NCBI GenBank assembly: GCA_038843015.1
Contig: JAWBSH010000012.1
Span: 1-44,965 of the forward strand
DNA length: 44,965 bases
Reading direction: 5' to 3'
Origin: Zestosphaera sp.
Lineage (GTDB): Archaea > Thermoproteota > Thermoprotei_A > Sulfolobales > NBVN01
This document shows positions 13,005-38,892 of this stretch, in pieces. How positions within the stretch are numbered: the stretch's first letter is position 1; every line of letters starts with the position of its first letter. Below the pieces are notes generated by a model, which made no database searches, was not told where the DNA came from, and saw nothing but the letters and a program-made list of their open reading frames with translations. The translations under genes were made by a program, and so were the position numbers.

Positions 13005-13057
13005 TGATGATGTAGCCGCTCCAGACTGAGAGATGAGGACCTCGCGACGAACTGAAT
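13005..13057 (+). ncRNA. C/D-box sRNA (2'-O-methylation guide)
   Basis: Box order and spacing match archaeal C/D sRNAs exactly. Box C ATGATGT is at 13007-13013, guide 1 AGCCGCTCCAGA at 13014-13025, box D' CTGA at 13026-13029, a 3-base spacer, box C' ATGAGGA at 13033-13039, guide 2 CCTCGCGACGAA at 13040-13051 and box D CTGA at 13052-13055. Both guides are 12 bases. Each C box has one mismatch to RTGATGA but keeps the TGA needed for the kink-turn. A TATA-like TTAATAA at about 12978-12984 lies about 26 bases upstream. By the D+5 rule guide 1 would methylate a G and guide 2 a U; I could not identify the targets. It would work with L7Ae, Nop5 and fibrillarin. Confidence 0.82.
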
Positions 13058-37233: not shown

Positions 37234-37950
37234 TTGAAGAAATTGTTTGTTATGGGGGCTTCAGGCAAGCTAGTCAGGCATATAGTGTCGTCGCTGACTA
37301 AAGACTACGAGCTCTTCCTGCAGTGTAGTAGGAAGTGTGAAGAGCTGAGAGAGTTTTTGGTTAGTGCTGGCGGCGGATTAAGTAATTCAAGTACTCACTT
37401 GATAAGACATGATTTCCTAGAAGAAGGTGTTGAGAGCTTATCTAAGAAGTTGAGAGAATTAACGAGTAGTCTAGACGCTTCTATACTTATTGAGCCCGTG
37501 TTCGATCAAACCCCTTTTCAAGACTTACGTGAGGACCTCATCAAGAAAATAATTTACTTAGATTTGGTAGTGCCGGTATCCTTGATTAGGATTCTGACTC
37601 CCTTCATGTCTAGTAGAGAGTCAGTAATTATTGTTTTGGTAGACCTAACACCTTTCGAGGGTTCTAGAGTTTACGCAGGACTTAACCCCTCATTACCTAC
37701 GGTTGCTTCGTCAGCCGCTCTCTACGCGGTAGTTAAGGAATCCCTGCATTACTTACCCAGTAATATTAAGGTGTTTGGTGTTGCTCTCGACTGGGTCAGA
37801 GTCCCTTCTAAGAAGTTGCCGTCAAACGTTGCTTCAGTAGCTATGAGTGTAGAAGATGTTGTGAGGTTTGTTAAGGGGTTGCTAGAGGAACCCTCTAAAA
37901 TCTCTTCTGGGGCTTTAATTAGGTTGAGTCGTCGGGGAGGAACTACTTAG
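37234..37950 (+). CDS. SDR-like NAD(P)-binding oxidoreductase
   Basis: The 238-residue protein starts LFVMGASGKLVRHIVSSL, a variant of the G-x3-G-x-G nucleotide motif, and has SSAALYAVVKESLHYL with the YxxxK catalytic pair of short-chain dehydrogenases. The middle is divergent, so substrate is unknown. TTG 37234 follows GAGGTATT. It forms a unit with the SIS-like gene. Its stop is only two bases from the end of the sRNA transcribed from the other strand. Confidence 0.65.
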   Translation: MKKLFVMGASGKLVRHIVSSLTKDYELFLQCSRKCEELREFLVSAGGGLSNSSTHLIRHDFLEEGVESLSKKLRELTSSLDASILIEPVFDQTPFQDLREDLIKKIIYLDLVVPVSLIRILTPFMSSRESVIIVLVDLTPFEGSRVYAGLNPSLPTVASSAALYAVVKESLHYLPSNIKVFGVALDWVRVPSKKLPSNVASVAMSVEDVVRFVKGLLEEPSKISSGALIRLSRRGGTT

Positions 37951-38003
37951 TTCAGACGCGGGTTCTCACATCACTGCTCAACCCTTGTAAGCTTCATCAT
38001 CAA
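37950..38003 (-). ncRNA. C/D-box sRNA (2'-O-methylation guide), second gene
   Basis: Read leftward: box C ATGATGA (38000-37994, perfect), guide 1 AGCTTACAAGGG (37993-37982), box D' TTGA (37981-37978), spacer GCA (37977-37975), box C' GTGATGT (37974-37968), guide 2 GAGAACCCGCGT (37967-37956), box D CTGA (37955-37952). Both guides are 12 bases and the spacer 3, the canonical archaeal geometry. A TATA-like AAATTTAAGC is centred about 26 bases before box C. By the D+5 rule guide 2 would methylate a G in ACGCGGGTTCTC; targets are not identified. The end reaches the stop of the SDR gene on the other strand. Confidence 0.87.
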
Positions 38004-38047
38004 CATAATATTACTCTTCTAGCTTAAATTTCTTGAAGTCCCTATTA

Positions 38048-38097: not shown

Positions 38098-38130
38098 TAA
38101 GCAGTAGTGTTTAGTTAGGTGTTTGTGAAG

Positions 38131-38892
38131 ATGGAGTTAGTGCCGGGAGCTGAGGTAGCTGGCGTGTCGCCAGCACTCTACTTGCGGAAGTACAAGACCT
38201 TAATTGTGGCTGACACTCACATTGGTTACGAGGACGAGCTTGCTTCAAGAGGTGTTTTCATACCTCGTTTTCAGTTGAAGAGAGTTATTGAGTTGCTTGA
38301 GAGACTCTTTAGTAGCTTCCTCGTGAGTAAGTTAGTGATAGCTGGAGACCTTAAACACAGCTTTAGCGGGATAGGCGTTGCCGAGAAGAGAGAATTGATG
38401 AAGTTTTTCACGTATGTAGCGCCTAAGGTAGAGGAAGTAATTGTTGTTAGGGGGAATCACGACAATTACTTGCCCCTACTAAAGAAGAAGTTTGATTTCA
38501 TGTTTGAGGATTACGTTGTTTTAGGAGAATACCTAGTGATTCACGGCCATAGACCCATCCCTGAAGACGTCGGCAGTTCGTGGGAATACCTCATCTTAGG
38601 TCATGAACACCCAAGCATAACACTGAGAGATAGTGTGGGGAGGTTAGGCAAGTTTTCTTGCTTTTTAGTGGGGGAGATAAGTAACTTGAACAAGGTTTTC
38701 GTCACGTTGCCGGCTACAGGAGCTTACCAAACAGGATCTAGAATAACACTAGATAAAGAAACCTACATATCGCCGATACTGAGAGAGAACGCCTCAATAC
38801 CGAACATAAAGCCAGTCATAGTTGATGAGGAGATAGGAGTTTTTGAGTTGCCGCAACTAAAAGACATTGCTGAATACCTCTACACCAAGTAA
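38131..38892 (+). CDS. Metallophosphoesterase (calcineurin-like)
   Basis: All five metal blocks of the family are present: LIVADTHIGYEDEL, VIAGDLKHSF, VVRGNHDNY, LVIHGHRP and LGHEHPS. The 253-residue protein matches the archaeal group of small cytoplasmic phosphoesterases near DNA-repair helicases (YbbF/SbcD-like); its substrate is unknown. ATG 38131 is chosen with AGGTG (38117-38121) upstream; GTG 38119 and GTG 38125 are in frame. Confidence 0.9.
   Translation: MELVPGAEVAGVSPALYLRKYKTLIVADTHIGYEDELASRGVFIPRFQLKRVIELLERLFSSFLVSKLVIAGDLKHSFSGIGVAEKRELMKFFTYVAPKVEEVIVVRGNHDNYLPLLKKKFDFMFEDYVVLGEYLVIHGHRPIPEDVGSSWEYLILGHEHPSITLRDSVGRLGKFSCFLVGEISNLNKVFVTLPATGAYQTGSRITLDKETYISPILRENASIPNIKPVIVDEEIGVFELPQLKDIAEYLYTK

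Follow-up and report, generated by a model that had tools for sequence, protein, structure and literature searches.

On the minus strand of a contig from Zestosphaera sp., a heat-loving archaeon, immediately beyond the end of an ORF of the opposite strand, short motifs follow one another like the boxes of an archaeal C/D-box sRNA. Two questions were asked of this locus: do these motifs belong to a genuine sRNA gene, and which RNA would its guides address? The window, i.e. the whole stretch of DNA analysed, is 44,965 nucleotides long (contig JAWBSH010000012.1). Read directly on the minus strand, positions 38000-37952 give ATGATGA AGCTTACAAGGG TTGA GCA GTGATGT GAGAACCCGCGT CTGA. The guide lengths, the spacer and the boxes are those announced by an earlier, sequence-only reading of the locus, and so is the perfect box C, ATGATGA. 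The features are listed below, from the promoter-like element towards the 3′ end of the sRNA, followed by the two neighbouring coding regions.

38023..38029, minus strand: TATA-like box ATTTAAG, 22 nt upstream of box C
37994..38000, minus strand: box C, ATGATGA, perfect consensus, identical in 5 of the 5 members of the genus
37982..37993, minus strand: D′ guide AGCTTACAAGGG; positions 2-10 are CTTACAAGG and pair with bases 31-39 of tRNA-Thr(UGU)
37978..37981, minus strand: box D′, TTGA, by direct reading
37977-37975, minus strand: spacer GCA between D′ and C′, by direct reading
37968..37974, minus strand: box C′, GTGATGT, by direct reading
37956..37967, minus strand: D guide GAGAACCCGCGT; positions 2-10 are GAACCCGCG and pair with bases 48-56 of tRNA-Thr(UGU)
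37952..37955, minus strand: box D, CTGA, perfect consensus
37234..37950, plus strand: SDR-like ORF, outside the sRNA and convergent with it, stop codon 1 nt from box D
38119..38892, plus strand: phosphoesterase gene, SbcD-related (NCBIfam TIGR00024), outside the sRNA and divergent from it

The resulting layout, 7-12-4-3-7-12-4, is that of archaeal C/D-box sRNAs, with boxes in order, guides of about 10-12 nt and a short D′-C′ spacer. Both strands of the window were scanned for perfect C and D boxes, with at most one mismatch in D′ and at most two in C′, and 38000-37952 on the minus strand was the only match. Dinucleotide shuffles of the window (n = 40) gave a mean of 0.025 matches per window. 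In Rfam, no family scored above its gathering score at 38000-37952. Several C/D models align full length through the boxes at sub-gathering scores, the best being sR9 (RF01312), with 31.1 bits against a gathering score of 36. The locus shares the C/D architecture with sR9, but the boxes carry the match and the guides differ, so that it does not qualify as a member of that family. The folding of the RNA by itself does not stand out (z −0.37), a result of little weight where C/D RNAs are concerned. Elsewhere in the window, positions 13007-13055 (+) hold a second clean C/D layout, ATGATGT-12-CTGA-GAG-ATGAGGA-12-CTGA, for which no clear 12-base target was found among the scanned rRNA or tRNA.

Upstream of box C, the motif ATTTAA(G/A) is found at a distance of 22-23 nt in 5 of 5 genus members, with drifting sequence on either side, and this distance is the typical position of an archaeal TATA box. 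A bacterial promoter and terminator scan, of a type not apt for archaea, found none. The gene order is also the same in the five genomes: a phosphorylase-superfamily gene, an unnamed ORF, the SDR-like ORF, the sRNA on the other strand, the phosphoesterase gene and TBP. The phosphoesterase assignment rests on 158.8 bits against TIGR00024, for a cut-off of 115.2. The convergent gene next to the sRNA 3′ end had been called an SDR gene; its placement is right, with box D 1 nt from the stop codon, but its SDR similarity is weak and below cut-off (Pfam adh_short, E 0.013; NCBIfam SDR-type models, E down to 1e-8, far under their cut-offs). This very divergent ORF, with no Pfam or NCBIfam model past cut-off, nevertheless lies beside the sRNA in most of the loci read in family f1. 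Most of these loci keep both sRNA neighbours, the SDR-like ORF and the phosphoesterase, even where the proteins are just 30-60% identical. In the loci read in families f7, f10 and f11, none of these neighbours was seen beside the sRNA, and both guide cores are retained.

The nucleotide that a C/D RNP targets lies opposite the fifth guide base, counted back from box D or D′. Complementarity in this register was sought in rRNA and tRNA, the two kinds of target put forward by the sequence-only reading. The rRNA scanned was the contig that carries the 23S and most of the 16S, the first ∼290 nt of the 16S being missing from the assembly; the tRNAs were the 46 Rfam tRNA matches of the genome minus four located at contig ends (Arg, Arg, Pro and Glu). 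Only the tRNA part of the proposal bore fruit, as both guides fit tRNA-Thr(UGU), but neither guide core has a 9-base match in the 23S or in the part of the 16S present. Positions 2-11 of the D′ guide form ten contiguous Watson-Crick pairs with CCTTGTAAGC, bases 31-40 of tRNA-Thr(UGU) (gene at G000:C8:61704-61777), and position 5 faces U34, the wobble base. The complement of the D′ core is present in this single tRNA among those scanned, tRNA-Thr(CGU) having its mismatch exactly at base 34. When other copies of the D′ target were searched for in the genome, the sole occurrence of CCCTTGTAAG was the sRNA itself.

Positions 2-10 of the D guide pair with CGCGGGTTC in the same tRNA (bases 48-56), and position 5 is opposite G51. 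The D core is less selective, since it fits seven scanned tRNAs, two Thr (UGU and CGU), four Ser and one Cys-like; tRNA-Thr(GGU) has no T-arm complementary to it. With shuffled guides, a match of this quality to tRNA-Thr(UGU) arose in 0.06% of trials for D and 0.03% for D′; when a match to any scanned tRNA was allowed, the figures were 1.8% (D) and 0.8% (D′). Thus each guide is complementary to a stable RNA in the N+5 register, at U34 and G51 of tRNA-Thr(UGU), and the two target bases are less than 100 nt apart on one RNA. From this pairing, the D′ guide most likely predicts 2′-O-methylation of the wobble U34, and the D guide Gm51.

To follow the guides among relatives, a sequence-only search model was built from the five genus sequences. 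Its matches cover most of family f1, as well as f7, f8, f10 and f11, with an altered form in f5. Homologues extend to other families of the order and to two genomes outside it. Both guides are in register in 53 homologues. In this set guide positions 2-10 hardly vary, each having the same base in 50-53 of the 53 sequences, while position 1 varies in the D′ guide (G39/T10/A3/C1) and in the D guide (G31/T15/A6/C1), and positions 11-13 are variable in both. The D′-C′ spacer also varies in length. This pattern was not forced by the search, because positions 1 and 11 are invariant in the five seed sequences of the model. A conserved stretch from 2 to 10 between variable position 1 and variable positions 11-13 fits the known footprint of a C/D guide-target duplex; the title of Yang et al. 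2016, as cited in PMC6313347, gives a maximum of 10 nt for substrate pairing with the C/D guide. With few exceptions, the tRNA-Thr(UGU) genes read from homologue-bearing genomes have both sites.

The exact double-core pattern was then counted: it occurs in 61 of the class's 229 genomes, two of the 61 lying outside the order, against 1 genome of 229 for a control with the reversed pattern. As homologues were found through a sequence that includes the guides, lineages with altered guides are under-sampled in these figures. Some f1 genomes gave no exact double-core match, perhaps in part because of genome incompleteness, and family f9 yielded no double-core homologue. In family f3 the same tRNA sites are present and the double-guide RNA was not found, so that the presence of the sRNA does not simply follow that of the sites in the tRNA. 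Genome G134 has a second double-guide copy (G134:C77:42001-42046) besides the ordinary one on C55; its spacer is like that of f8, and it may reflect contamination or transfer. Weak matches of the five-sequence model include unrelated C/D RNAs. Among them, loci L160, L163, L165, L166, L167 and L171, from several families, hold a different conserved C/D RNA (GATGATGAGGCTCGAAAGG ... GCCCGCGCAGG.CTGA).

The altered form in f5 deserves a description of its own. At locus L142 (G102:C1:109696-109757), the D′ guide is changed to GGCTTTCAAGG and the D guide is unchanged. The changed guide mismatches tRNA-Thr(UGU) within the anticodon. The anticodon loop that it does pair along, again in the U34 register and with one G-U pair, is that of tRNA-Ser(UGA). 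The tRNA-Ser(UGA) of this genome carries the D site as well, therefore the sharing of one tRNA by the two guides is kept in G102. The D′ guide of G101, also in f5, fits tRNA-Ser(UGA) with one mismatch, by manual pairing. For the homologue of G106, no target was found for the D′ guide.

Put together, architecture, conservation, the promoter-like element and the guide-target matches strongly support a genuine C/D-box sRNA gene at 38000-37952, as the sequence-only reading had claimed. That reading had named an absence of conserved boxes in relatives among the findings that would tell against its proposal; boxes are present in the homologues, with box C identical in 5 of 5 genus members. The opposite view, that the boxes fell into this arrangement by chance and do not make up a gene, could appeal to the lack of an Rfam match above gathering score. 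It is contradicted by conservation across genera and families while the flanks diverge, and the shuffle expectation of 0.025 speaks against it too. A gene could still have another role. It had been suggested that the sRNA might act antisense to the message of the SDR gene, and a short 3′ tail could indeed touch the SDR-like stop codon, because box D is just 1 nt away; the adjacency is moreover retained in most f1 loci read. This suggestion is not supported by the comparison. Box D and the stop codon are separated by 1, 1, 1, 6 and 36 nt in the five genus members, and by 1-37 nt in six further genomes from the family. Box D overlaps the SDR-like ORF in none of the 11 loci, the neighbours differ in f7, f10 and f11, and only the boxes and guide cores are conserved. 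Antisense regulation of the convergent gene is thus very improbable, and the adjacency looks like compact gene packing rather than a conserved overlap.

Accepting a C/D guide RNA, its real target might be rRNA, with the tRNA matches coincidental or secondary. According to the review PMC7994747, archaeal C/D guides with known targets mostly act on rRNA, and the 16S 5′ end is missing from the assembly. Against this, neither core matches the 23S or the available 16S part, the chance of two in-register guides on one tRNA is very low, and the conserved guide stretch coincides with the tRNA duplex, which makes an rRNA target unlikely. More weight must be given to a reading in which the D′ guide alone is functional on tRNA-Thr(UGU), and the D guide serves T-arms in general, chiefly those of Ser, Cys and Thr(CGU) tRNAs, the meeting of the two guides on tRNA-Thr(UGU) having no special meaning. 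The seven tRNAs fitted by the D core speak for it, as does the retention of the D guide in f5 (G101 and G102) where D′ differs. So does a separate C/D RNA in G002, whose D′ guide serves another version of the T-arm. Yet both guides stay together across several families, and in G102 the tRNA-Ser(UGA) fitted by the changed D′ guide also has the D site; we regard this reading as possible, with the balance tilting away from it. The RNA of G002 just mentioned (C1, ∼164481-164530, L013/L020) carries GAGAACCCGGGT as its D′ guide, predicted to act on base 51 in tRNAs with a CCGGG T-stem. T-arm guides similar to GAGAACCCGGGT were seen in G123, G118, G194 and G197, and position-51 guides may form a class.

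The reading we prefer, a dedicated C/D-box sRNA gene that guides ribose 2′-O-methylation of tRNAs, at U34 of tRNA-Thr(UGU) and at G51 of tRNAs with the T-arm CGCGGGTTC, is very probably correct, as judged from guide complementarity and its conservation. It has partial precedents. In Pyrococcus, sRNAs target base 34 of tRNA-Leu(CAA), Leu(UAA), Met and Trp, as reviewed in PMC7994747; there too, the C/D guide spans the anticodon loop with base 34 as target nucleotide, whereas here the tRNA is tRNA-Thr(UGU), the base is U34, and a second guide fits the same tRNA. The C/D RNA of the tRNA-Trp intron (sR50), described in PMC7994747 and PMC6313347 as guiding Cm34 and Um39, likewise directs two guides of one C/D RNA to one tRNA, one of them to base 34. 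Unlike sR50, which is the intron of its own target, the present RNA has a free-standing gene with a promoter-like element, and its second site is in the T-arm. PMC7668247 reports Um34 and s2Um34, and there the C/D machinery is credited with two sites of one tRNA, of which the wobble U34 is one; the combination of U34 with a second site on one tRNA is the same, the tRNA and the second site differ. Lastly, as Lui et al. 2018 (Pyrobaculum) is summarised in PMC7994747, tRNA-directed sRNAs use one guide, the other being without target, and the families have guides either for the unique base-34 region or for a sequence shared among tRNAs. Our RNA has one guide of each sort, and differs from that summary in that both guides have a target, on the same tRNA. 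Neither the guide sequences nor any guide for tRNA-Thr turned up in the literature searched; an earlier account of a related RNA is possible, e.g. in Lui et al. 2018. This is a known kind of RNA with an uncommon layout, both guides being on one tRNA.

By extension from what is known of C/D RNPs, we infer the following course of events. The sRNA would be transcribed from its own gene and assembled with L7Ae, Nop5 and fibrillarin. Its D′ guide would direct ribose 2′-O-methylation of the wobble U34 in tRNA-Thr(UGU), and its D guide methylation of the T-stem G51 in tRNA-Thr(UGU) and in further tRNAs that share the T-arm CGCGGGTTC. The benefit may be a more rigid wobble U, useful for the decoding of threonine codons at high temperature, and a tRNA that is stabilised or helped in its folding. 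A bolder proposal, which we hold only tentatively, is that a widespread crenarchaeal dual-guide RNA couples U34 and G51 methylation on one tRNA as a two-site checkpoint of folding and modification. Its wobble guide would be retargeted between codon boxes, as in f5, where Ser UGA replaces Thr UGU; the T-arm guide, suited to the two tRNAs alike, would not change.

What the locus offers is a testable assignment for the methylation of the wobble U of a threonine tRNA, together with that of its T-stem, in a large and mostly uncultivated group of archaea. The use of two guides runs against the summary that tRNA-directed C/D sRNAs use one, and retargeting of a wobble guide between tRNAs with a common T-arm would show how such guides evolve.
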